From contig DS990592.1 of assembly GCA_000155695.1 (NCBI GenBank), forward strand, positions 3,147,973-3,211,972: a DNA stretch of 64,000 bases. The letters run 5' to 3'. Origin of the DNA: Verrucomicrobiia bacterium DG1235 (GTDB lineage Bacteria; Verrucomicrobiota; Verrucomicrobiia; Opitutales; Opitutaceae). A model generated the notes under the pieces. The model was not told the origin of the DNA. It made no database searches and worked only from the letters and a program-made list of their open reading frames with translations. Shown here piece by piece: positions 19,209-62,432 of this stretch. The first letter of the stretch is position 1, and every line of letters starts with the position of its first letter. The translations under genes and the position numbers were made by a program.

Positions 19209-19295
19209 CTTCCAAATTCCAAATTCACCACTCACTACTCACCACTCACACCTCACCACTCGCGCCACTCACTACTCACTACTCACCACTTACCC
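19209..19295 (+). repeat. Heptamer (ACTCACC/ACTCACT) tract upstream of the RibD-C gene
   Basis: Degenerate 7-base units of the type ACTCACT/ACTCACC run almost unbroken from 19224 to 19292, preceded by a TCCAAAT/TCCAAAT pair. It ends 9 bases before the ATG at 19302, so it forms the leader of that gene. No ribosome-binding site is present. Confidence 0.8.
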
Positions 19296-19301
19296 CCTCC
19301 C

Positions 19302-19826
19302 ATGCTCACCCTCATCGCCGCCCAAACCCTCGACGGATTCATCGCCCGCCAAAACCAACCGGGCACCGACTTCTGCAGCGACGCCGACGCCGCCTTCCTC
19401 CGCTCCGCCCTCAAAGACTTCGACTCCCTCGTCATGGGCCGCAAAACCTACGATACGCTCCGCGACCGCATCCAAAACTCGGATACCACCCGCTACCTCC
19501 GCAAAATAGTCACCCGCGACCCCGCATCCCATGCGGCCGACACCAAGCCCGACCTCGTCGAATTCACCTCCGCCCCACCCGATGAAATCCTGGCCGAGCT
19601 CGCCAAACGCGGCCGAAACAAAACCGCCCTGCTCGGCGGCGGCGAAATCTATACCCGCTTCCTCTCCGCCGGTCTCGTCGACGAGCTCTGGATCACCATC
19701 GAGCCCCTCCTCTTCGGAGCCGGAACTCCCCTGCTAAGCCAGCCCCTCGAACTCCAGTTCAAGCTCCACTCCAGCGCCCCCCTCGGAAAAAACGCCCTCC
19801 TCCTAAAGTACCTGCCCCAAAAGTAA
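19302..19826 (+). CDS. RibD C-terminal/DHFR-like reductase
   Basis: 174 residues with the dihydrofolate-reductase-like fold of RibD_C: N-terminal MLTLIAAQTLDGFIAR, the LVMGRKTYDTL motif (as in DHFR MGRKTWES), KIVTRDP, and the C-terminal GGGEIYTRFLSAGLVDELWITIEPLLFGAGTPLL. Stand-alone members reduce pterin- or riboflavin-precursor-like substrates, but the substrate here is unknown. No deaminase domain is attached, so it is not a full RibD. Its leader is a heptamer repeat tract. Confidence 0.85.
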   Translation: MLTLIAAQTLDGFIARQNQPGTDFCSDADAAFLRSALKDFDSLVMGRKTYDTLRDRIQNSDTTRYLRKIVTRDPASHAADTKPDLVEFTSAPPDEILAELAKRGRNKTALLGGGEIYTRFLSAGLVDELWITIEPLLFGAGTPLLSQPLELQFKLHSSAPLGKNALLLKYLPQK

Positions 19827-19869
19827 CGGAGCAAGCGAGCCACCCCGTCCAGCTCCCTTCAGCGACCCA

Positions 19870-20364
19870 CTACTCGTCGCTCAAATTGTTCCTGTGAAAC
19901 TCGTCCGCGAACATCCGCAGCAGACGATCCATCACCTCCGTAATCGCCTCCGGCCGATTCGCCACCCCCATCATCTTACGCTCCCAAGTCGGCAAAGACA
20001 TCGTCACCACCCGATCCTTCGGCCGCTCCAGCTTCGCCATCTCCCTCAGCTCCAGCTTCACCACGTACAAATGGCTCGGTCCCTGAGCGTGGGCGATATC
20101 GATCGAAACCTCCAGATACGGCTGCCCCGGCATCACGTCCAACTCCATCGCCGACAAAAGCCGCACGTCAAACTCCTCCAGCGTAGCCAAAGCATGCGAC
20201 TCCACCTCCTCGTAATTCAGCTCGAAAACCTCCGACTGCACATTCAACGGACGGAGCTCCAACCCCACCCCCTGCAGATTCGTCAACACGCTATCCATGT
20301 AGTCCGAAGCCGCGCAAAAAACCGGGCCAAATACAACCACTGCCAAAATAGGAAAGAATCTCAT
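19870..20364 (-). CDS. Small secreted protein, unknown function
   Basis: 164 residues with a signal peptide (about 1-19, hydrophobic core then CAAS; the Cys could mark a lipoprotein site, but the lipobox VFCAAS is imperfect). The mature part alternates beta-like segments (YLEVSIDIAHAQGPSHLYVVKLEL) and a C-terminal helical stretch. No family is recognised. Convergent with the RibD-C gene and divergent from the helicase gene; about 150 bases to the latter should hold both promoters. Confidence 0.65.
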   Translation of the reverse strand: MRFFPILAVVVFGPVFCAASDYMDSVLTNLQGVGLELRPLNVQSEVFELNYEEVESHALATLEEFDVRLLSAMELDVMPGQPYLEVSIDIAHAQGPSHLYVVKLELREMAKLERPKDRVVTMSLPTWERKMMGVANRPEAITEVMDRLLRMFADEFHRNNLSDE

Positions 20365-20516
20365 AACAAGTAACTTAATCGACGAGACCCCAACCTAGCT
20401 AAAATTATCCCCAAAGCAGCAAAAAACATCCGCACAAAAAACCTCCCGTCCGCCTCTATGATTTTCTGTGGCATTCCCGGGCAAATTCTCCTTCTTCCCA
20501 ATCACCGCCCAACCGC

Positions 20517-23066
20517 ATGCAAATCGACGCCCCCAACCGCCAAGTCACGCTCAGCGTAGGAGAATTCGCATCCTTCACGCCCTACGCTACCCCCGGCTTC
20601 GGCGGCGTCACCGCCATCTGGCGCGCCCAGCTCGGCACCGAGTGGCACCAACGCATCCAAAAAGAATCCGCCGACGCCGGCGAAGGCATGCAAGACGAAG
20701 TCCCCATCACCGGAGCACTCCCCTGGCGCAACTGGACCCTCCAACTCACCGGCCGCATCGACCAGCTCAAAACCACCCAACACCCAGAAACCAACACCCA
20801 GAAACCAAGCGACTCTGCCGCTTTCCACCTACGCGAAATCAAAACCCTCTCCGAACCCCTCCCCCTCGACCGCCACTCCCTCCTCGACCGCTACCCAAGC
20901 TACCCCCTCCAGCTCCTCGCCTACCGCGAACTCCTCCTCCACAACAGTAACCAGCCCAAACCAAATCCCCCTCACCCCTCATCCTTAAACCTTCACAATT
21001 CACAATTCACCCTCGACCTCCTCCTCGTCGAAATCGGCTCCGGCCTCACCCAAACCCTATCCCTCGACCCCAGCTACGATCCCCTCCTCGTCGACCAGCT
21101 AGACACCCTCGTCGACTACCTCGAAGCCCAACAAGAGCGCCTCGCCCGCCTCCGCTCCCTCACCGTCCGTCCCGCCTACGCCGTACCCCGCCCCGGCCAG
21201 GAACATATCCAAGACGATCTCGACCAAGCCTTCGCCCACTCGAAAATCACTCTCCTCGAAGCCCCCACCGGCTACGGAAAAACCGGCGTCGCCTGGGAAT
21301 ACGCCGCCCGCCGCCTCGCCGCCGGCCAATGCGACCGCGTCCTCTACCTCACCTCCAAGTCCACCGGTCAAACCGAAGCCCTCACCCGCCTCCGCGACCT
21401 GCTCGACAATTCCCAATCACCACCCGCCTCGGAGCTTCACTCCTCACCACTCACTCCTCACTCCTCCACCGCGGCCACCTTCTGGCACATCCGCAACAAG
21501 CAAGAGCACTGCATCCACAGCGAATTCCGCTGCTCCCGCCAAACCTGCCCCTACCTCGCCGACCTCCACGAAAAATGGAAACGCGCCGGACTCCAGCGCC
21601 TCTACCTCCTCGCCCACGAAGAGCTCGACCTCGACACCCTCCGCTCCGAAGGCCGCTCCACCGGCATCTGCCCCTACGAAATCATGCGCGCCGGCCTCGC
21701 CCAACGCGACATCTGGATCGGCGACTACAACTACCTCTTCTCCCCCGCCTCCGCCCGCCTCCTCGCAGACCAAGCCAATTTCGACCCCGCCCGCACCTTC
21801 CTCATCATCGACGAAGCCCACAACCTCCCCTCCCGCGTCGCCTCCTCCTACACCTACGAATTCAATATCCACTCCGCCTACGCCGCCATCGACGACCTAG
21901 CAGCCAACAAAGCCCCCGCCCCCCTCCGCGCCCAACTCAAAACCCTCGCCAACCTCCTCCAAGACACCCCCACCACAAACTCGAGAAATCACCACTCACC
22001 ACTCACTACTCACCACTCTTTAGACTTCCGCCACGCCCTTGCCAAAATCTCCGAGCAACTCACCAGCGAGCCGCTCCCCTACGAAGAGCTCCAGCCCGAC
22101 ACCCTCGAGCTCCTCTTCCAAATCGCCTCCGCCCACTCCGGCCAAAGCCGCGACGAGCTCCGCCACCAGCTCTGGTCCCCCGCCCCCGGCACCCTCCGCC
22201 TCGAGTGCATCGACGCCTCCAAACTCATCGCGTCACAACTATCCCAATACAACGGATCCCTCTTCCTCTCCGCCACCCTCACCCCCCTCGACGCCTACCT
22301 CTCCGAAATCGGCCTCTCCGACTCCCAAATCCTCACCAAAGACACAGTTGCCTCCATTCCTAATTCCAATCCCAAGATTCAGCACTCACTACTCACTACT
22401 CACCACTTATCCCCCCCCGCCCCATGGCGCGACACCGCCTACGACGTCGCCATCGACCTCCGCGTCGATACTCGTTTCAAAACCCGTAGTATCCACCTCC
22501 CCACTACGGCCGCCACCATCGCCGCAGCAGCCGAATCCTCCGGCCCCGCCATCGCCTTCTTCCCCAGCTACGCCTACGCCCAGCAAGCCTACGAAGTCCT
22601 CCAATATCATCACCCCCTTATCCGGGCCGCACTTCAGCCCCGCTCCGGCGGCACCCTAGCCGACCGCGCAGTCTACCTCGAAGAAACCCTCGCCTTCCAC
22701 GACGTCCTCATCCTCATCCTCGGCTCCTCCTACGCCGAAGGCGTCGACAGCCTCGGCGGAAAAGCCGGCACCGCCATTATCGTCTCACCCGCCCTCCCCG
22801 AGATGAACTTTATCCAGGAAGCCAAACGCAGCTACCACGACGACCAAGGCAACAACGGCTTCGAACGCGCCTACCTCCAGCCCGGCATCCAAAAAGTCAA
22901 TCAAGCCCTCGGCCGCCTAGTGCGTTCCCCAGAGCACAAAGTCAAAGCCCTCCTCCACTGCCAACGCTTCGCGGACCCCAAAACCAAACGCCTCCTAGAT
23001 CCCCTGTATCAGTCCAAAAACTACATCCACACCCCCGAAGACCTAAACGCCTGGCTCGCCAAATAA
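20517..23066 (+). CDS. RecB-type nuclease fused to XPD/DinG-type helicase
   Basis: 849 residues. The N-terminal domain has PD-(D/E)xK RecB-like residues: Asp82 (GRIDQLK), Glu107 and Lys109 (REIKT), Gln132 and Tyr136 (PLQLLAY). The helicase follows: Walker A EAPTGYGKT from residue 248, four cysteines for an iron-sulfur cluster (332, 339, 344, 385), DEAH at 432-435 (LIIDEAHNLP), and motif VI NQALGRLVRSP near 795. Likely a 5'-3' DNA helicase-nuclease for repair. Five low-complexity inserts made of 7-base repeats are read in frame (near residues 87-97, 160-166, 307-317, 491-501, 622-631), giving peptides like HHSPLTTHHS. They seem to sit in surface loops, since the core motifs are intact. Confidence 0.85.
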   Translation: MQIDAPNRQVTLSVGEFASFTPYATPGFGGVTAIWRAQLGTEWHQRIQKESADAGEGMQDEVPITGALPWRNWTLQLTGRIDQLKTTQHPETNTQKPSDSAAFHLREIKTLSEPLPLDRHSLLDRYPSYPLQLLAYRELLLHNSNQPKPNPPHPSSLNLHNSQFTLDLLLVEIGSGLTQTLSLDPSYDPLLVDQLDTLVDYLEAQQERLARLRSLTVRPAYAVPRPGQEHIQDDLDQAFAHSKITLLEAPTGYGKTGVAWEYAARRLAAGQCDRVLYLTSKSTGQTEALTRLRDLLDNSQSPPASELHSSPLTPHSSTAATFWHIRNKQEHCIHSEFRCSRQTCPYLADLHEKWKRAGLQRLYLLAHEELDLDTLRSEGRSTGICPYEIMRAGLAQRDIWIGDYNYLFSPASARLLADQANFDPARTFLIIDEAHNLPSRVASSYTYEFNIHSAYAAIDDLAANKAPAPLRAQLKTLANLLQDTPTTNSRNHHSPLTTHHSLDFRHALAKISEQLTSEPLPYEELQPDTLELLFQIASAHSGQSRDELRHQLWSPAPGTLRLECIDASKLIASQLSQYNGSLFLSATLTPLDAYLSEIGLSDSQILTKDTVASIPNSNPKIQHSLLTTHHLSPPAPWRDTAYDVAIDLRVDTRFKTRSIHLPTTAATIAAAAESSGPAIAFFPSYAYAQQAYEVLQYHHPLIRAALQPRSGGTLADRAVYLEETLAFHDVLILILGSSYAEGVDSLGGKAGTAIIVSPALPEMNFIQEAKRSYHDDQGNNGFERAYLQPGIQKVNQALGRLVRSPEHKVKALLHCQRFADPKTKRLLDPLYQSKNYIHTPEDLNAWLAK
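20777..20804 (+). repeat. In-gene tandem 14-mer (two 7-base units twice)
   Basis: CCAACACCCAGAAA occurs twice in direct succession inside the nuclease domain, between Asp82 and Glu107, encoding NTQK-type residues. No frameshift results because the 28-base block is embedded in a longer insert that keeps frame. Confidence 0.75.
21436..21468 (+). repeat. In-gene heptamer tract 1 of the helicase
   Basis: TCACTCC / TCACCAC / TCACTCC / TCACTCC units inside the helicase ORF, read as SSPLTPHSS. The unit is of the same family as the intergenic tracts at 19224-19292 and 31323-31353. Confidence 0.75.
21989..22018 (+). repeat. In-gene heptamer tract 2 of the helicase
   Basis: TCACCAC TCACCAC TCACTAC TCACCAC T inside the helicase ORF, read as HHSPLTTHHS. 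It is a near-perfect run of four heptamers. Confidence 0.85.
22366..22410 (+). repeat. In-gene heptamer tract 3 of the helicase
   Basis: AATTCCAATCCCAAGATT followed by CACTCACTACTCACTACTCACCACT, read as HSLLTTHHLS. The compound layout (AATTCC-type then CACTCAC-type) is the same as at 19209-19295. Confidence 0.8.
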
Positions 23067-23334
23067 AAACCCCGTCTACCCCATACCAATAGATCCCGAC
23101 ACCGACGGAAATTGCATAGCGCGATTAATAATCGAACTTGGAGAACAAGGGAAACGGCAAGGCAGCCACTCTAGATTCAGAAATTCCTCAACGAATTCCA
23201 AACAGAGGAAACACTCTTCACCCTCCTAGCCGGAATAACACTGCATGAAGGGTTTTCTCCAACCCGAATGACCGACAAAGACGGCAAAATAGTATTGCGG
23301 CTTTTCCTCAGTCCCCTGCTTACGAAGCAACTTC
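23067..23334. other. Gene-free AT-richer stretch
   Basis: 268 bases between the helicase and the PycTM-like gene. A 30-codon ATG frame at 23268-23360 overlaps the 3' end of the next gene and has no support. No nucleotide-cyclase sequence or other partner gene was found here. Confidence 0.4.
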
Positions 23335-23835
23335 TTAAAACAGCGAATAGCCAAGCATAATGATCAACATAATTATGCTAATGCCAAATCCTTGAATCGA
23401 TCGCTTCACGCAAATAAACTTTTGATCAATAATTATGCTCTCGGCCTGGATCTGCTGACTCAGTTTATCGCAAAGCTCATCTTCGGTCTCACAAACGCTC
23501 ATCAACTTTTTCGAAAACTGATGACGATTCCCAAATTCTCGGGCAGCATCTCGAAAGTAAAACACGTTCTTATCGAACTCTAAATCCAGCTGAGGTTTAA
23601 AACACTTAAAGCAATAATATACCGATATCAGCACCGCCACGATCCATACTGAGGACAAAACGATGAGTATTAAGTCGTTTTGGATAATAGGCCGAATATA
23701 GTCTATACGATCTGCGAACAGACCCAAAATCAGACTATGAAACGAAAAGACCACCCCTGATTTCAACTCGGAAGCCCGAATTAGTTTCTCCAACCGTTCC
23801 AGCTGTTCCCAATAATTATTAGAGTCTTGAGCCAT
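23335..23835 (-). CDS. PycTM-like membrane effector (Pycsar effector family), orphan
   Basis: 166 residues with the layout of PycTM/DUF5706: a short N-terminal helix (WEQLERLEKLIRASELKSGV) running into a first hydrophobic segment (about 29-42), a long second membrane segment (about 50-76), a cytoplasmic middle with VFYFRDAA, then ELCDKLSQQIQAESIIIDQKF and VKRSI, and a final membrane helix to the C-terminus. In Pycsar, such proteins respond to cCMP or cUMP made by an adjacent cyclase during phage infection and disrupt the membrane. No cyclase gene is adjacent on either side. Codon use is clearly A/T-richer than neighbours, suggesting acquisition. The assignment is from pattern, not search. Confidence 0.62.
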   Translation of the reverse strand: MAQDSNNYWEQLERLEKLIRASELKSGVVFSFHSLILGLFADRIDYIRPIIQNDLILIVLSSVWIVAVLISVYYCFKCFKPQLDLEFDKNVFYFRDAAREFGNRHQFSKKLMSVCETEDELCDKLSQQIQAESIIIDQKFICVKRSIQGFGISIIMLIIMLGYSLF

Positions 23836-24039
23836 ATACTATTTTGCCAAAGTTAAACCTCGCCGCCCTCCCTATACAAACGCCCTCGCAAGCCCGCTGT
23901 TCGAAAACTCCGCTACAACACGTTTCTTTACAGAAATTGCTACAGGAACGCTTCCATGCATTCGCGCTCCTGCTCAAGGTGGATCCAAGTCTCGTATGAA
24001 AGAAACGCCCTGAACCATCAAGACCAAAAAGAAAAGCAA

Positions 24040-24098
24040 GCTCTACAACTCTAAATGCCGTACTATAGCTTCGACAACTGTAGAGCCAAAACTACAGT
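24040..24098 (+). promoter_or_regulatory. Leader with two mutually exclusive hairpins upstream of the VIT gene
   Basis: GCTCTACA (24040-24047) pairs with TGTAGAGC (24079-24086). ACTGTAG (24077-24083) pairs with CTACAGT (24092-24098). The arms overlap at 24079-24083, so only one hairpin can form. The second ends six bases before the VIT start codon and could block ribosome entry. ACTGTAG-N8-CTACAGT could instead be a protein operator. Confidence 0.5.
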
Positions 24099-24104
24099 CC
24101 GGCT

Positions 24105-24800
24105 ATGAACGTACCCCACGCGGAAAAACACCGCATCCATCGCTCTGGCTGGTTGCGAGCCGCCGTGCTCGGCGCCAATGACGGCATCGTTTCCACCGCG
24201 AGCCTGATCGTCGGAGTCGCGGCAGCAGGCGCTGAAAAATCCAATATCATCCTCGCCGGAGCCGCGGGACTCGTAGCAGGCGCCATGTCCATGGCGGCAG
24301 GAGAATACGTCTCCGTCAAGTCTCAGGAAGACACCGAAGCCGCCGACCTCAAAATCGAAAAGCAAGCCCTCCTAGACCATTGGGATGAAGAAGTCGAAGA
24401 GCTCGCCGCAATCTACCGAAGCCGCGGACTAAACGACGAGCTAGCAACAGAAGTCGCCGACCAACTCATGAAACACAACCCTCTCGAAGCCCACGCGCGT
24501 GACGAGATCGGCATCACCTCAGAGCTCAGCGCCCAACCCCTCCAAGCCGCGTTTTGGTCAGCGCTCGCATTCTCCGTCGGAGCCGCCGCACCCCTCCTCA
24601 GCGTATCATTCACGCCGCCCGGAGCCCTACTTTGGGTCGTTCCCGTCATCGCCCTTCTCCTCCTAGGATGCCTCGGCGCAGCAGCTGCTCGCGTCGGCGG
24701 GGCGCCCCCTCTTCGTGGCTCCATGCGCGTTTGCTTCTGGGGAATGTTGGCAATGGGACTCACCGCAACAGTGGGAAAGATCTTCGGCATCGCCCTTTAG
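24105..24800 (+). CDS. VIT1/CCC1-family iron/manganese transporter
   Basis: 231 residues, inner membrane. N-terminal HRSGWLRAAVLGANDGIVSTASL is the family signature (first helix with GANDGIVS), followed by AGAAGLVAGAMSMAAGEYVSVKSQ, a cytoplasmic Glu-rich helical metal-binding domain (about 85-140), and three further helices. CCC1/VIT proteins move Fe2+ or Mn2+ out of the cytoplasm in exchange for protons. The 5' leader carries an inverted repeat right before the start, so metal-dependent control is plausible. Single-gene unit. Confidence 0.92.
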   Translation: MNVPHAEKHRIHRSGWLRAAVLGANDGIVSTASLIVGVAAAGAEKSNIILAGAAGLVAGAMSMAAGEYVSVKSQEDTEAADLKIEKQALLDHWDEEVEELAAIYRSRGLNDELATEVADQLMKHNPLEAHARDEIGITSELSAQPLQAAFWSALAFSVGAAAPLLSVSFTPPGALLWVVPVIALLLLGCLGAAAARVGGAPPLRGSMRVCFWGMLAMGLTATVGKIFGIAL

Positions 24801-24865
24801 AAGCTTTTCAAATCGGGGATTCGCACCCACTGTCCCATGCAAAATCGACTCCCCGATAAGCGAAA

Positions 24866-25486
24866 ATGCCTGAAGAATCCCATACCCGCTTCAACGTAAT
24901 CGGTTCCAGCGGCAGCGGCAAATCCACCTTTTCACGCCGCCTCGCCAGACAGCTCGATATCCCCTACGTCGAACTCGACGCTATCTACTGGGGCCCGGAC
25001 TGGACCGAGCCAGACGACCAAACCTACTTCCAAAATCTGGATACAGCACTTTCCGGCGACTCATGGGTGCTCGACGGAAACTACTCCCGCACCACCCACA
25101 TCAAATGGAAACGCGTGCAATCCGTCATCTGGCTCGACCTCTCTTTTACCCGTGCCCTCTACCAAAGCCTCAAACGGACCATACATCGAGCGTGGACCCA
25201 AAAAGAGCTCTGGCCCGGAACCAACAACCGAGAGTCCTTTCGCAAAAGCTTCCTTAGCCGAGACTCCATCATCCTCTGGGCCATCACTAGTCACGCCCCT
25301 CTTCGAAAACGATACCTGAAAACCATCAACGACCCCGCCCACGCTCACATAGACTTCATCCGACTCCGCTCCCACCAAGAGGTCGAAGCCTACCTCTCAT
25401 CGCTCAAACAAATCGCATGCACATCCGCCCCTACCAAGCCACAGATCACGACTCCCTCATCCAACTCTGGAAAGACTGCGAACTGA
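24866..25486 (+). CDS. P-loop kinase-like protein (adenylate-kinase/FlaR-type)
   Basis: 206 residues. Walker A GSSGSGKSTFSRRLA near residues 13-27, then PYVELDAIYWGPDWTEPD and WVLDGNYSR, the pattern of the DNA-topology-modulation/FlaR-like subgroup of adenylate-kinase-like P-loop proteins; VIWLDLSF is Walker-B-like. Substrate unknown. The last ~23 codons overlap the next gene by 70 bases and look like a low-complexity tail, so the true domain ends near residue 180; a slightly different ancestral stop may have been lost. It starts the accessory run of GNAT and cupin genes. Confidence 0.72.
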   Translation: MPEESHTRFNVIGSSGSGKSTFSRRLARQLDIPYVELDAIYWGPDWTEPDDQTYFQNLDTALSGDSWVLDGNYSRTTHIKWKRVQSVIWLDLSFTRALYQSLKRTIHRAWTQKELWPGTNNRESFRKSFLSRDSIILWAITSHAPLRKRYLKTINDPAHAHIDFIRLRSHQEVEAYLSSLKQIACTSAPTKPQITTPSSNSGKTAN

Positions 25487-31304: not shown

Positions 31305-31322
31305 CCCTAGTCCCTCTCCCAC

Positions 31323-31353
31323 TTCACCACTCACCACTCACTCCTCACCACTC
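31323..31353 (+). repeat. Heptamer tract in the pyrR-pyrB gap
   Basis: TCACCAC TCACCAC TCACTCC TCACCAC T, ending seven bases before the pyrB GTG start. It occupies most of the 55-base gap. Confidence 0.82.
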
Positions 31354-31359
31354 TCACCC

Positions 31360-32298: not shown

Positions 32299-32414
32299 CG
32301 AACGGGCGCCGAGCTTGTCACGCGATTCTCCACAACCCGATCCCACCACCCGATCATCTAGACAAAGCCGTCCCAAAAATCCCGATACAAAAATCAACCA
32401 TATCCCAACTCTCA

Positions 32415-32557
32415 CCATTCGTGAAGATTCGTGCCCATTCGTGGGCAAAAAATTCCAAAAGCCATTCGCAAGATCCATCACTCCCCATCTGAGACATCTG
32501 TGGTTAAAAGCTCACAACTAGATCACAAAACATCCACATAATCTGTGGGTAAAAAAA
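32415..32557 (+). repeat. TTCGTG/TCTGTGG dispersed repeats between pyrB and pyrC
   Basis: 32416-32447 repeats the 3362-3393 layout (ATTCGTGAAG ATTCGTGCCC ATTCGTGGGCAA). Further on, ATCTGTGGTTAAAAG (32496-32510) and ATCTGTGGGTAAAAAAA (32541-32557) form a second pair. Together they fill much of the 267-base gap between pyrB and pyrC. Confidence 0.72.
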
Positions 32558-32565
32558 CTTTCCAA

Positions 32566-43411: not shown

Positions 43412-43423
43412 GCCCCAAAACCT

Positions 43424-43450
43424 AATTCCTAATTCGTAATATCAAATTAG
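43424..43450 (+). repeat. AATTCCT/AATTCGT heptamer-like tract before cdsA
   Basis: CCTAATTCCTAATTCGTAAT is a two-and-a-half-unit 7-base repeat in the uppS-cdsA gap, resembling the AATTCC-type units that precede the CACTCAC tracts elsewhere. Confidence 0.5.
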
Positions 43451-44349: not shown

Positions 44350-44378
44350 TTCACCCCTCACTCCTCACTACTCACACT
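44350..44378 (+). repeat. Heptamer tract before dxr
   Basis: TCACCCC TCACTCC TCACTAC TCACAC, ending five bases before the dxr ATG. Same unit family and position as the tracts ahead of the RibD-C gene, pyrB and the DciA-like gene. Confidence 0.78.
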
Positions 44379-55100: not shown

Positions 55101-57192
55101 AGCCGGCGCCATCATCGACGAGGGCGAATCCTTTTCAGTAACCGTAGAAGCGCGCGGCACCGGCACACTTCAATATCAGTGGATGCTCGAAAACGTCGAC
55201 ATCCCCGGTGCCACCAGCAATACCTATAGCGTCACCAATTCCATCCGAGCTACCCACCACGGCCACTACCGAGCCCGTATCACTGACGACCTTACATCCA
55301 TCACCAGCAACGGAGCCTTCGTTCAAATCAGCAACCAGCCCGGCGGTGGAGGTGGGGGCGGAGAAGGAGGAGGCGACGGCACCCCGAACGCTCCGAGTAA
55401 CCTCTCCGGCACAGACGGCGGATCGGACTCCGTCACCCTCACATGGCAGGACAACTCCTCCAACGAAACTGGCTTTTCGCTCGAGCGCCGCCAGCAAGGC
55501 ACCGATTCGTGGACATCGGTTTCCACCGGTATTTCTGCTAGCGCAACCGAGTTCGTCGATGCCACGAATATCGGAACCGATACCTACGAGTACCGCCTCA
55601 AAGCAAACGGCAGCTCAGGCGACTCAGCCTACTCAAACATCGCCGCAGTCTCGCGCTCTAGCGGCCCCGCGCCACTCGCCGCTCCCACCAGCCTATCTGC
55701 TAGCGACAACACTGCCCACGTTCGCCTAGAGTGGACAGACAACGCGACTTCAGAAACTGGATACACCATCGAACGCAAACTTCAGTCCGATTCGAGCTGG
55801 TCTACCGTAGCAACCATCGGAGCAAACTCCGTCGCTTTCACCGATCCTATCAACATCGAAAGCGAAAGCTACGAATACCGCGTAAAGGCGACCGACGCCA
55901 GCAACAGCTCCGACTACTCAAACATTGCGGCAGTCTCTCGTTCAGGAGGTAGCGGAGAAGGCGGAGGTGAAGAGCCTACGCCTGCAGCTCCAGCCAGCCT
56001 CGCAGCGACTGACGAGTCCACTCAAGTCACCCTCACCTGGGATGATCTCTCCAACAACGAGACGAGTTTCGCACTCGAACGCAAGGAGCAAGGCTCCTCC
56101 ACATGGGTATCGGTTTCCGCTAACATTCCAGCCAACCAAACCGAATTCGTCGATGCTACCGATATTGGAACCACAACATACGAATACCGAATCAAAGCCA
56201 AAGGCAGCTCGGCCGATTCCAACTACTCGAATGTCACCAGCGTCACCCGCGAATCAAGTGGCGGTGGCGGGGAAGAGCCAACACCACCCGTCGCTCCGGC
56301 CAATCTCGTCGCCACCGACGAAGCCACCTTTGTCACCCTCACATGGGATGACCTTTCCGACGATGAATCCGGTTTCTCGATACAGAGAAGAAAACAAGGC
56401 GACCCATCGTGGACACAGCTTGCCACAACCGCCGCTAACGCCACGACCTACCAGGACAACACCGACATCGAGACCGACACCTTCGAATACCGCATCGCCG
56501 CAGACAAGGACGCCATCGCATCCGACTACTCAAACGTCGCCAGCGTCACCCGTGCCGTATCCAGTGAAAACCTAGATCTGCAGGCTATCGTTTCCGACCA
56601 CCAGCATCTGGAACTTGAAATCCAAAATACGAATACAGTTCAGTATCTAGTCGACCTTGTCGCGGCTGAGCTCGAAGCCTCCGCCGAAACACTCTCCGTC
56701 TACCTTGGCGATTCAAAGTTAACTTCCCCGAGCGCGAGCTTGCAGGAAGCCGGCTTTATTGACGGAGATCAATTCACCGTTCTTCGCTCGGACGACACGT
56801 CAGACAGCAACTACGCTACCTGGCAGCTCGCAAACCTTGGTTCCCTCCGCGAAAAACGCCTCCCTTCCCAAGATGCAAACGGCGACGGACTAGCCAACCT
56901 CCTGCACTATGCCTTCGGCAGCTCGCCGAACGATTCCGATCACGAAGCAAATCGAGCAACCATCGAGCCATCCACAAACGGTCTTACAGTCAGCTTCTAC
57001 CGCAACAAAAACGCGGACGATATCTCGATTCAAATAGAGTCTTATGACTCTGAATCCTCGACCTGGGAAACGCTCTCCTCGCTCGCCGATTCGACCAGCG
57101 AGACCGAGCAAGATCACGTTGAACGAGTCACCATCCACCTAGAACTCGCATCCGACGAACAGGCTATGCTCCGATTGAAAATCAGCCTCTAG
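52108..57192 (+). CDS. Giant secreted protein: glycosidase-like head, Ig/FN3 modules, ubiquitin-like module
   Basis: 1694 residues. Signal peptide 1-23. About 24-530: TIM-barrel-like region with a Rossmann-like tail (ISSYPVVFVSEAIQVTDSQF, MDYVNGGGTLIVTG), the layout of GH42-type beta-galactosidases; catalytic residues not assigned. About 690-1075: Ig-like domains (VSIQWYKNDES; LQYQWMLENVDIPG). Four FN3 repeats about 1093-1485 (SVTLTWQDNSSNETGFSLER, with close variants), split by Gly-rich linkers (GGGGGGEGGG). About 1500-1560: a segment with ubiquitin-like pattern. C-terminus SQDANGDGLANLLHYAFGSS is a Verrucomicrobial exoprotein tail. Likely acts on extracellular polysaccharide. Confidence 0.78.
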   Translation: MTPLHRFLTLVLLSLYSSLTLHAGSNPPHPEGLLLRGFESEAAFNRRGDQAVLNGVQTTIRIDAAGEVSSSISAEDIAPLVSWYQNRDQYYSAYADFGPGIGSAIGFTDDISSAGKTLDLDGNKAGPSIFLDETYQAILTVAKAYVDAGVDAIHYDTAWVALDAGPFDSATMTAFRDWLNTRFSEATLQSYIDPSYDDGTFDYGVFLRSKGVTTSNYGTATIGSEKLGATKHWRLWHAFLRYKEREVIATFVDAVNTYAQAELGREIGFYFNRYGFIDRPADRWFLAEYASGDLGETHFSGQTWDYSDGYNLEPVFRAGLKTNDNRFEPWNSPPAANTAVQSLFLAETIANNGVATWEDDYPATAPIARLARQYDSQLDHAPVSEAAIFYPLATTLHTEPLQVGPDPGLLGGDHYWYLGLGYILQELEINYDVAFGGDGLGMPDTFSSSDISSYPVVFVSEAIQVTDSQFTALMDYVNGGGTLIVTGTNCLRYDALGNDMSSTRSYDSKTWTQLLGSAGSTSIGSGTLKVVSLDAIGTTGYTDQPSSSALSSALASLEAALPSSIERVTTGASGDVRALSYRDTSDNSRVYHLLNYSFNGAGTAISSQSSFTVSFPTPPSSPGSSDYAGTSVATYVASADSAPTTLTITDLGSGTSQVTIPSLSYWGILRIGSAIPTDDHPNVEPIAYFDSLFSYEVFDSTESRSLTYSAFDDDEIDQLQIYYSKKDTSTGLFGAWTADQTIAGTSANEIVDATVDYTLPSEGHFRLQIVATDSDSATNSLLGSNAYDTEVGYDTTALDRSSLVVTPLHGNASGSVITSPVTPSFSFTGHEDKVSGFGQYNWSWNNGGNTIDGGGNPLEETITLDAIPAIVEAEYGEYNLSLRFQNGANIWDDSETEYTLIYTLPLTYNGSETDETATAGDTVSFTLDYTNVYGDVSIQWYKNDESMDGQTEGTLTLFSVGDSDAATYHATIENPAGQITSPDFNLTVNTTLEVTQQPAGAIIDEGESFSVTVEARGTGTLQYQWMLENVDIPGATSNTYSVTNSIRATHHGHYRARITDDLTSITSNGAFVQISNQPGGGGGGGEGGGDGTPNAPSNLSGTDGGSDSVTLTWQDNSSNETGFSLERRQQGTDSWTSVSTGISASATEFVDATNIGTDTYEYRLKANGSSGDSAYSNIAAVSRSSGPAPLAAPTSLSASDNTAHVRLEWTDNATSETGYTIERKLQSDSSWSTVATIGANSVAFTDPINIESESYEYRVKATDASNSSDYSNIAAVSRSGGSGEGGGEEPTPAAPASLAATDESTQVTLTWDDLSNNETSFALERKEQGSSTWVSVSANIPANQTEFVDATDIGTTTYEYRIKAKGSSADSNYSNVTSVTRESSGGGGEEPTPPVAPANLVATDEATFVTLTWDDLSDDESGFSIQRRKQGDPSWTQLATTAANATTYQDNTDIETDTFEYRIAADKDAIASDYSNVASVTRAVSSENLDLQAIVSDHQHLELEIQNTNTVQYLVDLVAAELEASAETLSVYLGDSKLTSPSASLQEAGFIDGDQFTVLRSDDTSDSNYATWQLANLGSLREKRLPSQDANGDGLANLLHYAFGSSPNDSDHEANRATIEPSTNGLTVSFYRNKNADDISIQIESYDSESSTWETLSSLADSTSETEQDHVERVTIHLELASDEQAMLRLKISL

Positions 57193-57200
57193 ACAAAAAA

Positions 57201-57233
57201 AGCAGCAGGGCGTACCTACACCCCGCTGCTTTC
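57201..57233. terminator. Bidirectional terminator between the exoprotein and M3 peptidase genes
   Basis: AGCAGCAGGG (57201-57210) pairs with CCCCGCTGCT (57221-57230) with one mismatch. On the plus strand it is followed by TTCT; on the minus strand by a run of seven T (complement of 57194-57200). Confidence 0.8.
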
Positions 57234-57255
57234 TCAAAAACCTCAGCTTGAAACC

Positions 57256-59319
57256 TTAAGCTAGTCCACTACGGACCAACAAGGCCTTCGGATCGGGCTC
57301 GCGACCCATGAAGTCCTTGAACAACTCCATCGGATCCTCCGAATTCCCCTTCGACAAGATGCAATCGCGGAACGCCCGCCCGGTCTCCTCGTTGAAAATT
57401 CCCTCTTTCTCAAAACGCGTAAACGCGTCCGCATCGAGCACCTCCGCCCACTTGTAGGAGTAGTAGCCCGCCGCATAGCCGACCGGACTCGAAAACAAGT
57501 GCCCGAACCGGCGCACGATACTACGCGGAGTCGTCTTAAACTCCGCCACGTATCCAGAAAGTGTTTCACGAATCTTCGCGTCTAGATCTCCGTCTAGATA
57601 GCTCTCGGGATTTACATGCATCTCGAGATCCATTTTCCCAAAGCTAAGCTGACGCATCATCGCCGCCGCGCTCTGAAAATTTCGCGCAGCAACCATCTTT
57701 TCGAACAAGTCCTGAGGAATAGCCTCATCCGTCTCATAATGACGGGCAAACTGATCCAAAGCTTCACGGTTCCAGCACCAGTTTTCCATGATCTGCGAAG
57801 GCAATTCCACAAAGTCCCAAGCCACGTTCACGCCGTTGAGTGACTTGATGTCCACCCGCCCGAGCAGGTGATGCAACAAGTGTCCAAACTCATGGAAAAC
57901 CGTCTCCACTTCATAGTGCAACAACAAGGCTGGCTTGCCGTCTACCGGCTCCGTCATGTTGCCCGTAATCAGGCCGACATGCGGTGTGCGACTTCCGTCT
58001 GGCTGCGGCATTCCCGTATCCAAATAATTCATCCAAGCCCCACCACGCTTCTCCTCGCGCGGGTGCCAATCCGCATAAAAATAGCCAAGCAGCTCCCCGC
58101 CTGCATCGTATAGATCGTAGAGCTTCACATCTGGATGCCAGCTATTTTCCGGACCCTCGTGATTTTGTATCTTCAAACCAAATACACGTTCCGCAATCCG
58201 GAACATTCCATTCAGCACCCCGTCGATCGGGAAATACGGACGCAAAGCCTCGTCATCGAAATCATACTTCGATACGCGCAGCTTCTCCGACCAATAGGCC
58301 ACATCCCACGGCTCCAGCCTCTCCTTCGGCTTCCCCGTCTGCTCCGCTACAAACGCTTCGAGATCCTCGAACTCCTGATCAAACGCCGACTTGGACTTCT
58401 CGTAGAGCTCCTGGGTAAACGCGAGCGCCTGCTCGCCGGATTTCGCCATGCGACGCTGCAAAACCTGGTCGGCAAAATTCGCCTTACCCAACAGTTCCGC
58501 CTTCTCCTGACGCAACTTCAAAATCTCCCGAATCAGTTCGCTGTTATCCCAATCGCCCTTGAGCCCAATCAAAGCCGCCTCTTCAGAAATCGTCCTACGC
58601 AGCTCCGCATCATCCGCATACTTGAGCACTGGCAGAAACGACGGAGCCTGTAGTGTAAATCTCCATACAGGCTTCTCTTCGGTGCCATGCCCCTTGCTTT
58701 TTGCATTCTGAAGAGCCGCCGCCTTCGCCGACTCCGGCAAACCCGCTAGTCGACTCTCATCGTCGATCAGCAGTTCGTACGCATTCGTCGAATCGAGCAC
58801 ATTGTCCGAGTAGCTCTTAGTCTTATCCGCTAGCTCCTTGTTCAAAGCTTCCAAACGCGTCTTCTTATCCTGAGGCAAATCCGCGCCCGCCTGCTTGAAG
58901 TCCGCCATCGTCTCCTCGAAAAGCCGCTTCTGCACACCCGTAAGCTGGGCCGCCGCAGGCTTCTCCGCGAAGCTCTTCAAAGCTCCCCAAAGTTCGGCAT
59001 TAAGCGGGATCCGAGAAGAGTATTCAGTCACCTTCGGCAACATAGCCCGATGCGCCTCGCGCAGCTTATCGCTGTCCTGCACCGAAGTCAGGTGGTCCAC
59101 CCTACCCCAGGCCCTGCCCAAGGTCTGCCCTGCCGCCTCAAGCGCCAAAAACGTGTTCTCAAACGTGGCCTCCTCCGGAGTCACCTTGCAGATCGCGTCG
59201 ATCTCCGCCTGCCCCTCCACGAGGGCCGACTCGATATCCGCCCGGATATGATCTGTCGTAAGGGTCGACCAATCGACCAACTTCGCTGGACTATGAAAAG
59301 GATGTAGCTCAGAACTCAT
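57256..59319 (-). CDS. prlC: M3-family oligopeptidase (oligopeptidase A type)
   Basis: 687 residues, normal for the family. Zinc site ETVFHEFGHLLHHLLG (HExxH) about residues 475-490, with the downstream Glu in NWCWNREALDQFARH, and HVGLITGNM-like segments flanking. Degrades signal peptides and short peptides in the cytoplasm. ATG at 59319. Terminated by the shared hairpin. It is not in an operon. Confidence 0.95.
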   Translation of the reverse strand: MSSELHPFHSPAKLVDWSTLTTDHIRADIESALVEGQAEIDAICKVTPEEATFENTFLALEAAGQTLGRAWGRVDHLTSVQDSDKLREAHRAMLPKVTEYSSRIPLNAELWGALKSFAEKPAAAQLTGVQKRLFEETMADFKQAGADLPQDKKTRLEALNKELADKTKSYSDNVLDSTNAYELLIDDESRLAGLPESAKAAALQNAKSKGHGTEEKPVWRFTLQAPSFLPVLKYADDAELRRTISEEAALIGLKGDWDNSELIREILKLRQEKAELLGKANFADQVLQRRMAKSGEQALAFTQELYEKSKSAFDQEFEDLEAFVAEQTGKPKERLEPWDVAYWSEKLRVSKYDFDDEALRPYFPIDGVLNGMFRIAERVFGLKIQNHEGPENSWHPDVKLYDLYDAGGELLGYFYADWHPREEKRGGAWMNYLDTGMPQPDGSRTPHVGLITGNMTEPVDGKPALLLHYEVETVFHEFGHLLHHLLGRVDIKSLNGVNVAWDFVELPSQIMENWCWNREALDQFARHYETDEAIPQDLFEKMVAARNFQSAAAMMRQLSFGKMDLEMHVNPESYLDGDLDAKIRETLSGYVAEFKTTPRSIVRRFGHLFSSPVGYAAGYYSYKWAEVLDADAFTRFEKEGIFNEETGRAFRDCILSKGNSEDPMELFKDFMGREPDPKALLVRSGLA

Positions 59320-59431
59320 ATTGCCCGCACCCTAGCTCTCCTCTGCATCAACTCAACCGAGAAGCGCGAAAAGAAGGTAGGATCACAGCTGTCAGACAAC
59401 CATCCGACCAGACACCATTCTCCTCAATCCC

Positions 59432-60217
59432 ATGCCTTTCTTAAAACGAATCCACTGTCCGACACCATTAGACAATTCCCGATTTCCGCTCTCGCTACCT
59501 TTCGTTTCCAATCTCTGCGAAAAAGACATCACTTCCGACATCCTCTTCCTAGTCGGTGAAAATGGAAGTGGAAAATCCAGCCTGCTCGAATCCCTGGCCA
59601 TTGCATCCAAGCGTATCAGCGTGGGCGACTCCTCTCTCGACCAAGATCCAACCTTAGCCGAAATACGCCCCCTCGCTCAACAACTCCGTCTTGGGTGGAG
59701 TCGTCGTACAGGCAAAGGTTTTTTCCTCAGGGCCGAGGACTTCTTCAACTTCATCCGACGCAATAAGAAGCTCGAAGAAACTTTCGACGAATACATCGAC
59801 CACTTTAAAGACGACGATCGCGTTCGCGGGTATATGGAAGGCAATAAACGCGCCATCAATGCCCGCTACGGACGCGATCTTAACGACTTCTCCCACGGTG
59901 AAGGATTCCTCGAATTCATCAAATCCCGCATCCACCCCGGCGGCCTCTACCTGATCGACGAACCAGAAGCCGCCCTCTCTCCTCAGCGACAGCTCGCCTT
60001 CGCCTTCTTCATCCGCGAAATGGCCCTACAAAATTGTCAGTTCATCATCGCCACCCATTCCCCGATCATTCTCAGCGTGCCAGACACAGAAATTTGGGAA
60101 TTCGACGAATACGGCCTCCAGCCCACTTCCTATGATCAGCTCGCACACGTAAGCTTTACCAAAAGCTTCCTCGATGCCCCACACCGCTACTGGCAACAGC
60201 TCTCTCAAGAAGGCTAG
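59432..60217 (+). CDS. Stand-alone AAA/ABC-type ATPase
   Basis: 261 residues. Walker A VGENGSGKSSLLESLA (about 41-56), a degenerate signature FSHGEGFLEFI in place of LSGG-Q, Walker B GGLYLIDEPEAALSP, switch His in IIATHSPIIL. This is the pattern of the AAA_21/SMC-like predicted ATPases, as found in OLD-type and toxin-linked proteins, but no nuclease (TOPRIM) domain or partner gene is attached. Followed 18 bases later by a cupin. Function unknown. Confidence 0.82.
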   Translation: MPFLKRIHCPTPLDNSRFPLSLPFVSNLCEKDITSDILFLVGENGSGKSSLLESLAIASKRISVGDSSLDQDPTLAEIRPLAQQLRLGWSRRTGKGFFLRAEDFFNFIRRNKKLEETFDEYIDHFKDDDRVRGYMEGNKRAINARYGRDLNDFSHGEGFLEFIKSRIHPGGLYLIDEPEAALSPQRQLAFAFFIREMALQNCQFIIATHSPIILSVPDTEIWEFDEYGLQPTSYDQLAHVSFTKSFLDAPHRYWQQLSQEG

Positions 60218-60235
60218 TCCCACCCAAATCCAACC

Positions 60236-60715
60236 ATGCAAAAAATCAACTCCGACTCCCTCAAGCCACGCCGCTGGCGCTCCCCAAAACGCAAATACGG
60301 AGCCTCCCTCCAAGAACTCTCCGTCGCCCTCGGCCGCGACGACAAATCCACCGACCTGCTCGCCCGCCATCCCTTCGACGTCTCCATCGTCACCCTCGCG
60401 CCCGGCCAAACCTTTTGCCCCCTCCACGCCCACGACGCTCAGTGGGAGTTCTACCACGTCATCGCCGGCCAAGGCGTCGCGCGTGAAATCGAGAGCGAAA
60501 CCAAAGTCGGCCCCGGCGACGCCTTCCTCTTCAGGCCAGGCGAAGCCCATCAACTCCGCAACGACAGCGACACCGACTTCATCTACTACGTCATCGCCGA
60601 CAATCCAGTCAGCGACCACGCCTACTACCCCGACTCGAAAAAATGGATCGTATCCCAGCCCGAGCAACAACTCATCCGCTCCGAACCCATCGACTACTTC
60701 GACGGCGAAGAATGA
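60236..60715 (+). CDS. Cupin-domain protein, paralogue of the 28854 gene
   Basis: 159 residues. Motif 1 CPLHAHDAQWEFYHVIAGQG, motif 2 GDAFLFRPGEAHQLRNDS, then VIADNPVSDHAYYPDSKKW and LIRSEPIDYFDGEE. Shares these blocks with the 28854-29348 protein over nearly full length. Histidines suggest a metal centre. It is 18 bases after the ATPase gene, and its 3' end overlaps the convergent GNAT gene by 22 bases. Confidence 0.87.
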   Translation: MQKINSDSLKPRRWRSPKRKYGASLQELSVALGRDDKSTDLLARHPFDVSIVTLAPGQTFCPLHAHDAQWEFYHVIAGQGVAREIESETKVGPGDAFLFRPGEAHQLRNDSDTDFIYYVIADNPVSDHAYYPDSKKWIVSQPEQQLIRSEPIDYFDGEE

Positions 60716-61257
60716 GAAGCGGATAGCCGCGCTAAAACCGACTCGGCTCCCGACCAATCCTCAGAGGTCAACGCCCACCGCTCATGGTCCCGCCACTCGC
60801 CGCCTATCTTCAAGTAGCGCGGCGAAAAGCCTTCCTTGCTTAGCCCCAACCGCTCCACCAACCGCACCGAACGCTCGTTGCCAGGCTGGATATTCACCTC
60901 CAGACGGTGAAGCCCGAGACCAATAAACGCCTCGTCAAAAACCAAAGCCAGCCCTCGCGTCATCCGGCCACCGCCACAATACCCCTGCACTCCCCAATAA
61001 CCGACAAACGCGCACTGCAACGCCCCATGCGTGATTTCGCTCAAATTGACGATGCCCGCCATCCGATCGTCCGACTTGCGACACACCAAATACCCCTCGT
61101 GTCTAGAATCTTGGATACGATCCAAATACTCCGCAAAACCCTTCACCGTCACCGTCGGGTACACCCAAGGCCGATGCATCGACACGCTCCCCTTCGCCGC
61201 CTCCACAAACTCTCGACCATCCGACTCCTCCGGCCGTCTCAGATACACCCCATACAT
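60694..61257 (-). CDS. RimJ/RimL-type GNAT acetyltransferase
   Basis: 187 residues from ATG 61255-61257 (MYGVYLRRPEESDGREFV), chosen because a GGCTGGGGG purine-rich site precedes it; an ATG at 61281 is also possible. Motif A FVGYWGVQGYCGGGRMTRGL, then HRLEVNIQPGNERSVRLVE, the N-x-x-S block of RimJ/RimL proteins, and HERWALTSEDW at the end. Likely acetylates a protein N-terminus or a small molecule. Overlaps the convergent cupin by 22 bases. Confidence 0.9.
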   Translation of the reverse strand: MYGVYLRRPEESDGREFVEAAKGSVSMHRPWVYPTVTVKGFAEYLDRIQDSRHEGYLVCRKSDDRMAGIVNLSEITHGALQCAFVGYWGVQGYCGGGRMTRGLALVFDEAFIGLGLHRLEVNIQPGNERSVRLVERLGLSKEGFSPRYLKIGGEWRDHERWALTSEDWSGAESVLARLSASHSSPSK

Positions 61258-61389
61258 TACCCCCAGCCTAGCAGCGAGCATTGGAAACTCAACCGCAGAG
61301 CGAAAAACCGGCTATTTCATATAGCTGTCATTTCTTCACACGATTCGTTGCCTTTAGCGCCAGCCGTGATTCACTAGCGAATCACTAAC

Positions 61390-62397
61390 ATGCAAAAGAC
61401 AACCGCACTCCGTCACTCCGAATACGGCAAACCAGAAGACTGCCTCAAACTCGAGACCATCGAGCTTCCAACACTCGGCCCCGGCCAAGCGCTGCTCAAG
61501 ATCCTCGCCGCGCCCATCAATCCCGCCGACTTCGGCCGCATCGGCGGCACCTACGGCGAGCTCGCTCCCCTGCCCGCCACCGCCGGACTCGAAGGCGTCG
61601 CTGAAATCGTCAAGCTCGCAGACAAAGCCTCTTCATTCCGTGTCGGCCAGCACGTCTTCGTGCCCAGCGCCCTCGGCGCCTGGCAGACCCACGCCGTCGC
61701 CAACTGCAAAGACCTCTACCCCGCCCCGGAGAAACTCCCCATCGAGCAAGCAGCCATGTGCTGGGTAAATCCCGCCACCGCCTGGAAGCTCCTCCACGAC
61801 TTCACTAAACTGCAGGCCGGCGACATCATCGTGCAAAACGCCGCCACCTCCGCCGTAGGTAAACTCGTGATACAGATCGCCAACCACCTCGGCATCAAGA
61901 CCATCAACCTCGTCCGCACCCTCGACTCCGCAGACTCCCTCAAAAAGCTCGGAGCCAGCATCGTCCTCGTCGACAACCGCGACGCCGCCAAAGCAGCCCT
62001 CGTATTCACCAAAGGAAAAAAAGCGAAGCTCGCCTTCAACTCCGTCGGCGGCTCCAGCTCCCTCGGCATGTGCAAGCTCCTCGCGGACGGAGCCTCCCTC
62101 GTCACCTTCGGCGGCATGGACCGCGACCCAGCCCCCTTCCCCACACGCTACCTCATTTTCAACGACATCCGCCTCCGCGGCTTCTGGGTCAGCAAATGGT
62201 ACGCCACCGCCCCTCGCCAAGAGATTCTCACCCTTCACAACGAGATTTTCTCCTTCATGGAAAACGCCAAGATCAAGGTCGACGTCGCCGCCACCTACTC
62301 GCTGGAAGACTGGCCAAAAGCCCTCGAACACTCCTCCACCGCAGGCAAATCCGGAAAAGTCCTCTTCACCCCCGCCGCCGACCAAGGCCCCCACTAA
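61390..62397 (+). CDS. MECR/ETR-like zinc-free medium-chain reductase (2-enoyl thioester reductase)
   Basis: 335 residues of the MDR superfamily. PINPADFGRIGGTYGELAP and GLEGVAEIVKL match MECR/ETR1 enoyl-thioester reductases (PINPADIN-x-I-x-G-x-YG). VNPATAWKLLHDF, then IIVQNAATSAVGKLVIQIA is the nucleotide-binding region with A-x-S/T-AVG in place of GxGxxG, as in that subfamily. Zinc ligands are absent. It may reduce trans-2-enoyl-CoA/ACP in lipid synthesis, parallel to FabV, or be a quinone reductase. Confidence 0.85.
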   Translation: MQKTTALRHSEYGKPEDCLKLETIELPTLGPGQALLKILAAPINPADFGRIGGTYGELAPLPATAGLEGVAEIVKLADKASSFRVGQHVFVPSALGAWQTHAVANCKDLYPAPEKLPIEQAAMCWVNPATAWKLLHDFTKLQAGDIIVQNAATSAVGKLVIQIANHLGIKTINLVRTLDSADSLKKLGASIVLVDNRDAAKAALVFTKGKKAKLAFNSVGGSSSLGMCKLLADGASLVTFGGMDRDPAPFPTRYLIFNDIRLRGFWVSKWYATAPRQEILTLHNEIFSFMENAKIKVDVAATYSLEDWPKALEHSSTAGKSGKVLFTPAADQGPH

Positions 62398-62408
62398 TTC
62401 CCAAACTC

Positions 62409-62432
62409 AGCACTCACCACTCACCACTCCAA
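62409..62432 (+). repeat. Heptamer tract before the DciA-like gene
   Basis: AGCACTCACCACTCACCACT, two to three TCACCAC units, ending about 9 bases before the TTG start of the next gene. Confidence 0.78.

Follow-up and report, generated by a model that had tools for sequence, protein, structure and literature searches.

Tandem repeats with a seven-base unit are spread over the chromosome of Verrucomicrobiia bacterium DG1235, and their orientation follows the direction of replication almost without exception. We analysed them from a stretch of 64,000 nucleotides, here called the window, which covers bases 3,147,973–3,211,972 of the 5.51 Mb contig C6 (DS990592.1, assembly GCA_000155695.1) in a 5.78 Mb genome of six contigs. 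The host is a Pelagicoccus (Verrucomicrobiota), and all four relatives found for a DinG-like helicase gene in the window carry this genus name. In the parts of C6 that we examined, 135 of 135 runs of at least two units, drawn from five families, are oriented as their replichore demands. Heptamer tandem repeats are already a known kind of sequence; the near-absolute replichore polarity is what we consider new. As the best explanation, with a probability of roughly 45%, we propose heptamer slippage or template switching specific to the lagging strand, with tract edges set by coding constraint.

Results and Discussion

The counts come from an even sample of C6 (60 stretches of 20 kb, 1.2 Mb) and from a full set of 101 regions (1.85 Mb, 20 kb of it counted twice); 40 further regions were added to the even sample, 29 of them picked for holding tracts and the last eleven placed blind. 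Positions from genome-wide pattern searches are those of the matches listed, 100 per search. The exact doublet TCACYMC-TCACYMC matches the genome 351 times with overlaps included (172 forward, 179 reverse), against 22 and 43 matches for the reversed pattern. Among 94 relatives, seven of them of the same genus, no genome exceeds six matches, in a comparison that used the TCACYMC unit alone, while relatives carry other units.

With a search for approximate tandem repeats of any unit, we found 35 tracts of period 7 in the even sample, compared to 1, 8, 0, 9 and 2 tracts of periods 5, 6, 8, 9 and 10, respectively. An order-5 Markov null, trained with the tracts masked, gave 1.25 such tracts per 1.2 Mb (four simulations). 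For TCACYMC doublets, the same null gave 0.25 (eight simulations) and the sample 26. Single TCACYMC units outside runs behave differently: the sample contains 557 on the C-rich strand (C-strand) and 112 on the G-rich strand (G-strand), the null 604 and 113. There is thus no enrichment of single units, and since their counts match the null we rejected a single-site motif. The tracts themselves are real and far above chance. The original prediction, made from the letters of the window, had offered a frequency equal to that of shuffled sequence as the outcome that would speak against it; shuffle and Markov nulls were both exceeded. It had also likened the tracts to the heptamer repeats of cyanobacteria. 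We class them, as tandem heptanucleotides with degenerate units, with the simple sequence repeats (SSR) or short tandemly repeated repetitive sequences (STRR), and they show the two traits of this class that we examined: period 7 is in excess over other periods, and the arrays are degenerate, mostly intergenic and close to a coding sequence (CDS) on one side.

Contig C6 has a very strong GC skew with an opposite AT skew in both replichores. In the even sample, GC skew turns negative at 0.76–0.84 Mb and positive again at 3.74–3.82 Mb; its magnitude ranges between 0.02 and 0.37. Tract orientation flips together with the skew at ~0.80 and ~3.78 Mb. The 135 consistent runs, assigned to replichores by C6 coordinate, consist of 81 TCACYMC, 15 AATTCNT, 21 TTCAYMC, 16 CCCA[AG]NA and 2 TCATNGC runs, and they do not equal independent births, as some share one interrupted tract and four are copies in one tandem repeat of ~159 bp. 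The unit of this repeat contains TCACTCC TCACTCC TCACCAC and stands in four tandem copies (locus L111, C6:2738272–2738769). Eight more runs lie on unplaced contigs, and the six TCACYMC runs among them sit on the locally C-rich strand.

Genome-wide pattern searches give the same result. All 79 listed C6 places of the 14-mer, the exact TCACYMC doublet, are replichore-consistent (minus below 0.46 Mb, plus at 1.07–2.81 Mb), as are all 90 listed C6 places of a 25-mer (minus below 0.46 Mb, plus at 1.07–3.65 Mb, minus at 4.07–4.55 Mb). Since all 75 forward matches of the 25-mer are among those listed, the 69 remaining ones are all reverse, and the order of the list places them presumably beyond 4.55 Mb. 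The degenerate skeleton CABNMYY in four copies is consistent at 85 of 86 listed C6 places; its reversed control is not low in the host genome (75/67 against 112/148), perhaps because tracts fit the skeleton in another register.

The leading strand of bacterial chromosomes is usually G- and T-rich. From this and the skew switches we infer that 3.78 Mb is the origin, that ~0.80 Mb is the terminus and that the lagging strand is the one rich in C and A. The gene for ribosomal protein L2 (2.69 Mb, minus strand) is co-directional with replication if the origin lies at 3.78 Mb. As further checks, dnaA was located at C6:1996249–1996734 (1.996 Mb), far from both switch points, and a search for 16S rRNA gave no match in the assembly.

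These data change what the original prediction had made of the window. It had described all tracts as lying on the plus strand, which is correct for the window, and as running in the direction of the adjacent gene, which is true there but fails genome-wide, where tracts also stand antisense against the ends of co-directional genes. Its proposal of a strand-dependent origin is borne out in that the strand rule is real and even stricter than supposed; the strand concerned, however, is that of replication and not that of the gene, since it flips at the skew switches. The equal frequency on both strands that it had set against itself did not occur. The agreement between runs and replichores suggests that such repeats arise or survive on just one of the two strands being copied.

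Could strand composition alone set this polarity? Slippage would then not be strand-specific, strong GC and AT skew would confine G-poor seeds of a length that permits slippage almost entirely to the C-rich strand, and oppositely oriented tracts would never start or would decay. In line with this idea, the seeds are already 5:1 polar and tract number climbs with local |skew| (Spearman 0.55, p 6e-6); GC content correlates with tract number too (0.51). The tracts, however, are more polar than their seeds, because against the 557:112 singles TCACYMC runs of at least two units split 26:0 in the even sample, and 81:0 in all regions. Period-7 tandem runs of any kind lean with their C content to the C-strand in 39:0 cases with one tie, period-6 and period-9 runs in 24:4 (7 ties) and 20:3 (5 ties). 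Weak skew is also revealing. The 31 regions with |skew| <0.2 hold 221 single units on the C-strand and not one TCACYMC run, whereas all 26 runs lie in the 29 regions above this value, even though single units per region rise less than 2-fold with skew. For period-7 tracts of any unit the corresponding numbers are 1 and 34. Furthermore, the tracts are dominated by the same few units, whereas local composition would not lead one to expect this (the null has 0.25 doublets in 1.2 Mb). We prefer strand-specific slippage because tracts are so much more polar than their seeds and are nearly missing where skew is weak although seeds occur there; composition as the sole cause is the main rival and, in our judgement, follows closely, although it is less likely than not.

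A strict orientation relative to replication is also known from oriented chromosome signals such as FtsK orienting polar sequences (KOPS), architecture imparting sequences (AIMS) or Chi. The density of KOPS and AIMS increases toward the terminus. The tracts tend to do the opposite: from origin to terminus the quarters of the replichores contain 17, 10, 5 and 3 of the 35 tracts (Spearman −0.25, p 0.05), in an analysis that assumed the length of the unplaced part and in which skew likewise falls from origin to terminus. Skew, GC content, gene content and DNA age may be confounded in this tract density. We rejected segregation signals on the missing rise toward the terminus. Five unit sequences instead of one, and relatives nearly devoid of the main unit (at most 6 matches), make signals of this kind hardly credible.

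We then related the tracts to genes, which were called by a purpose-written codon-model script and not by a standard caller. For pyrB, cdsA and dxr, the starts assigned by this script match alignments to most relatives. We refer to genes with a C-rich coding strand as head-on, under the assignment of the origin to 3.78 Mb; head-on and co-directional coding sequences make up 39% and 45% of the bases in the even sample, respectively. Among 106 approximate period-7 tracts, 76 are intergenic, 26 lie in head-on CDS, 3 in co-directional CDS and 1 at a region edge. The three in co-directional genes are all within the last few percent of the gene, in its 3′ tail. The reverse complement of TCACTAC contains TGA and TAG and, since 7 is no multiple of 3, brings a stop into every frame, so that tracts of the main unit are barred from the inside of co-directional genes. 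The gene-direction rule within genes is therefore largely a consequence of coding. CCCA[AG]NA tracts are open both ways, yet all 8 that lie within genes are in head-on genes, a bias that the stop-codon constraint leaves unexplained.

Outside genes, anchoring to coding sequence is one-sided. The C-strand 3′ end of 53 out of 82 such tracts falls within 15 bases of the next CDS or overlaps it, compared to 17.9 on average and at most 28 in 2000 trials of random placement; this proximity must be read with the caution that the caller tends to set gene boundaries at tract edges, because the units offer no start codon on one strand and contain stops on the other. At the 5′ end, only 13 of 82 are within 15 bases of a CDS. 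The 3′ side meets the starts of head-on genes (31/54 within 15 bases) and the stops of co-directional genes (22/28) alike; the 5′ side lies within 15 bases of head-on stops in 12/53 cases and of co-directional starts in 1/29. As tracts abut co-directional stops in unchanged chromosomal polarity, we rejected a gene-strand rule as the primary one. We also rejected a Shine-Dalgarno constraint as cause of the asymmetry at starts, since hardly any Shine-Dalgarno excess is seen in head-on genes (5.8% of 328, 4.8% shuffled) or co-directional genes (14.7% of 292, 12.0% shuffled).

Tracts that end at start codons could serve as translation or transcript signals in 5′ leaders, bound by protein or ribosome, as has been proposed for the TAACTGA repeats of Beggiatoaceae. 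The 31 tracts close to head-on starts and the little or no Shine-Dalgarno excess of the genes would suit such a role. It does not account for the 22 tracts that press antisense on co-directional stops or overlap them, nor for tracts within coding sequences; moreover, orthologous leaders often lack tracts and single units do not exceed the Markov null. We regard this explanation as very improbable.

How the units are ordered bears on their origin. The 87 TCACYMC runs share a CCCAAT-like 5′ flank, with C at positions −6 and −4 in 63%, A at −2 in 74% and T at −1 in 55% of them; some such flanks belong to an interrupted tract. Their 3′ edges have little in common beyond T followed by C or T. TCACCAC opens 50 of the 87 runs, while 114 of 191 inner units are TCACTAC. 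Like units neighbour each other 142 times, against a permuted mean of 122 and a largest value of 141 in 1000 permutations. We count this clustering and the common 5′ edge in favour of lagging-strand slippage.

Tracts turn over between species. Upstream of pyrB, we compared seven genomes of the same genus by eye and found one TCACCAC tract, one remnant, three without any tract, and two with other heptamers (TTCATCC, TTCACTC). In 25 loci from these seven genomes, the C-containing unit lies on the locally C-rich strand in 18 of 18 distinct tracts, one of which has a local skew of only 0.018. Spacers between genes of 71–96% protein identity are, judged by eye, too divergent to separate insertion from replacement.

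Several of these observations are what copying between loci would produce. A module of 25–40 bases (CCCAAT followed by TCACCAC and TCACTAC repeats) would be pasted as single-stranded DNA into lagging-strand gaps. The common 5′ edge and first unit speak for it, as do common units that differ from species to species and different units at one locus in relatives. No carrier enzyme stands out, however, and the 3′ edges are hardly shared; we consider copying of this kind quite unlikely. A search with PF00078 (RVT_1) gave 0 matches in the host genome (G000, 96.5% complete); the family is present in 5 of 8 members of the genus. We therefore rejected templating by a reverse transcriptase of the defense-associated (DRT) or retron-like type, and the templated mechanism of the original prediction is, in this form, unsupported. 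Y1 transposases give 2 matches in the host genome and 1–8 in tract-poor relatives. Repetitive extragenic palindromic (REP) elements with a REP-associated tyrosine transposase (RAYT, Y1) do not fit either, given that Y1 is not expanded and that only one inverted pair occurs among the 86 listed C6 places of the CABNMYY skeleton.

Within the window (Table 1), all seven TCACYMC tracts named in the original prediction are present at positions right within a few bases, and so are its three runs of related units. A two-unit search with TCACYMCTCACYMC, two mismatches allowed, gave 35 matches, all on the plus strand, where 9.6 were expected and 17 was the largest number in 100 shuffles. TTCCAAA in 2.4 copies precedes the first tract. 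With Rfam models at the gathering threshold there was no match within the window, and a known RNA family was rejected on this basis.

Table 1. Heptamer Tracts of the Window and the Gene That Holds Five of Them (window positions)
Feature	Position	Strand	Context
TCACYMC tract, 9.7 interrupted units	19225..19294	+	ends 7 bases 5′ of ATG 19302, RibD_C/DHFR-like gene
DEAD_2/Helicase_C_2 (DinG-like) gene	20517..23066	+	five heptamer tracts in loops
CCAACACCCAGAAA x2.3 (two related heptamers)	20777..20808	+	variable loop, DinG-like gene
TTCACAA x2.7	20992..21010	+	second variable loop, DinG-like gene
TCACYMC tract (TCACTCC + TCACCAC units)	21437..21466	+	third loop, DinG-like gene
TCACCAC/TCACTAC tract	21989..22018	+	fourth loop, DinG-like gene
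TCACTAC/TCACCAC tract	22382..22408	+	fifth loop, DinG-like gene, 3′ of CCTAATTCC-like sequence
TCACYMC tract	31319..31353	+	between phosphoribosyltransferase (pyrR-like) and aspartate/ornithine carbamoyltransferase genes; ends 6 bases ahead of carbamoyltransferase GTG start
CCTAATT x2.9	43421..43440	+	between undecaprenyl diphosphate synthase and CTP_transf_1 genes
TCACYMC tract	44351..44378	+	ends 5 bases ahead of ATG 44384, DXP reductoisomerase
ACTCACC tract	62405..62429	+	ahead of probable start (TTG 62439), DciA-family gene

The tract-bearing loops of the DinG-like protein differ in length across five Pelagicoccus proteins, and some of these loops in three relatives (L032, L033, L034) contain other heptamer-like runs, as judged by eye. 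A distant Pelagicoccus metagenome-assembled genome (L034:4001–6592; L153) shows inverted heptamer-like arms in the coding loops of this gene, by eye with the frame open; L034 and L153 (both on contigs of 68,681) are probably one contig. At the other end of the window, the DciA-family gene at 62439–62822, presumably encoding a replicative helicase loader, has a heptamer tract in its leader. Apart from heptamers, a 17-base tandem repeat of 3.8 copies, CAACTCCCCCCAACTAG, lies at 15259–15321, where a large open reading frame (ORF; 11283–15329) of the minus strand has its 5′ end. Short motifs, TTCGTGGGCAAAAAA and CTGTGGTTAAAA among them, stand in a long spacer at 32299–32565, and spacers of relatives (L152, L155) show similar ones.

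In a scan of the phylum, the CABNMYY skeleton was found in 132 of 387 genomes, a number qualified by the fact that the pattern selects its own skeleton and that the reversed control is equal or higher in many genomes. Several genomes far exceed that control (for G265, 303/278 against 0/1). Thirty loci with 32 tracts were inspected, two of them (L219 and L220) from a genome absent from those listed. Here 21 tracts go with the local 3 kb skew and 11 against it, and all 5 with |skew| of at least 0.14 go with it, which favours composition as the source of polarity. Strong skew and heptamer polarity thus appear to occur together. Two Verrucomicrobiota genomes, G265 and G356 (L221–L250), are rich in heptamer tracts, and their inverted pairs often set a CAGCATT arm opposite CATAATT, so that a hairpin would contain two mismatches per seven bases.

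Heptamer repeats of other phyla offer a further comparison. The cited part of PMC4692102 describes GGGAATC arrays in Xanthomonas as degenerate, 2 to 26 units long and mostly intergenic, with inverted pairs, and as 28 nt away from the 5′ neighbouring ORF but 160 nt from the downstream ORF; it also mentions GGGGA(T/C)T repeats in Nostoc. We read this one-sided ORF anchoring as the same as in Pelagicoccus. The Xanthomonas heptamers are, in the same part of that source, about equal on both strands without leading or lagging preference. Here, by contrast, polarity is near-absolute (135/135), there are several unit families, and a GGG run is missing from the main unit.

From the part of PMC4679880 cited here, TAACTGA direct repeats occur in Beggiatoaceae, Cyanobacteria and Bacteroidetes, together with related split units. 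These arrays often end just 5′ of start codons that lack a ribosome binding site, and some are reversed inside ORFs. Eight Microcystis sets share a common chromosome orientation, and the author asks if this is genome-wide. Heptamer arrays adjoining start codons are common to both systems, as far as that part goes; TAACTGA differs in being one unit whose orientation was judged relative to genes, whereas Pelagicoccus has many units and a rule per replichore. TAACTGA is not among the units of our 106 listed tracts, and no search aimed at it was made. According to Mrazek et al. (2007), as cited in the same part of PMC4679880, heptanucleotides are the commonest class of long SSR in most genomes studied, and slippage over the stretch contacted by the polymerase was suggested as their origin; in contrast to our tracts, no replication orientation rule is given in the text cited. 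The STRRs of cyanobacteria (Calothrix), as cited in the part of PMC4692102 used here, are short heptanucleotide tandem repeats. Our tracts resemble them in being short tandem heptanucleotides. To our knowledge, no replichore polarity is known for the Calothrix repeats. Beyond PMC4692102 and PMC4679880, a literature search whose coverage left out most subscription journals turned up no paper that connects heptamers with the strand of replication.

Several observations weigh against slippage or template switching confined to the lagging strand. The strand bias of this DNA is very strong (|GC skew| of at least 0.2 in 29 of 60 regions), so that G-poor repeats would favour one strand without a special mechanism, and with 0.25 C-strand and 0 G-strand doublets per 1.2 Mb the Markov null is too sparse for its strand ratio to be measured. 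One unit makes up 81 of the 135 runs, and this dominance, like the common 5′ edge, suits copying between loci better than independent slippage. An inverted pair at C6:1534015−/1534053+ is the sole discordant place among the listed matches; its arms (C6:1534015–1534080) are mixed heptamers of the CATCATT, CATCCCT and CATACTT types. In G265 and G356, 5 of 10 distinct loci contain inverted pairs, with arms 10–17 bases apart and at weak skew, and the Xanthomonas heptamers described in the cited part of PMC4692102 show no leading or lagging preference. Because of these last two cases, heptamer growth is not inherently restricted to the lagging strand. Finally, no strain-level comparison shows a tract growing.

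If lagging-strand slippage is nonetheless correct, the tracts may form as follows. A C-rich, G-poor unit would arise and persist almost only on the lagging strand. During lagging-strand synthesis or repair of Okazaki fragments, the nascent C-rich strand would slip or switch template in 7-base steps on the G-rich template. Growth would start preferentially at a CCCAAT-TCACCAC-like seed and extend along the lagging strand in the 5′ to 3′ direction, toward the probable origin at 3.78 Mb. The product would be retained only where coding permits, that is, up to a head-on start codon, up to or just into a co-directional stop, or within the loops of head-on proteins. The data show the tracts with their 7-base period, replichore polarity, one-sided anchoring to coding sequence, common 5′ edge and turnover between species, whereas the slippage or template-switch step and the direction of growth are inferred, and the polarity would come from replication itself. 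A bolder version, in which Pelagicoccus runs an active replication-coupled process that writes heptamers exclusively on the nascent lagging strand, from a CCCAAT-like start to a stop at the coding boundary, is tentative and in our view rather unlikely.

Conclusions

We know of no accepted origin for the heptamer repeats of distant bacteria. More than 100 runs of several units that obey the direction of replication tie the origin or the survival of heptamers to one strand of the fork. Pelagicoccus provides a clean system for this question, with many tracts, strong skew, sharp switch points and relatives that carry different units at the same sites. Placement at start codons, earlier read as translational control, is seen at the stops of oppositely facing genes too. 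If true, active writing on the lagging strand would explain the one-sided anchoring of heptamers to coding sequences in distant phyla, and would make the origin of heptamer repeats testable.

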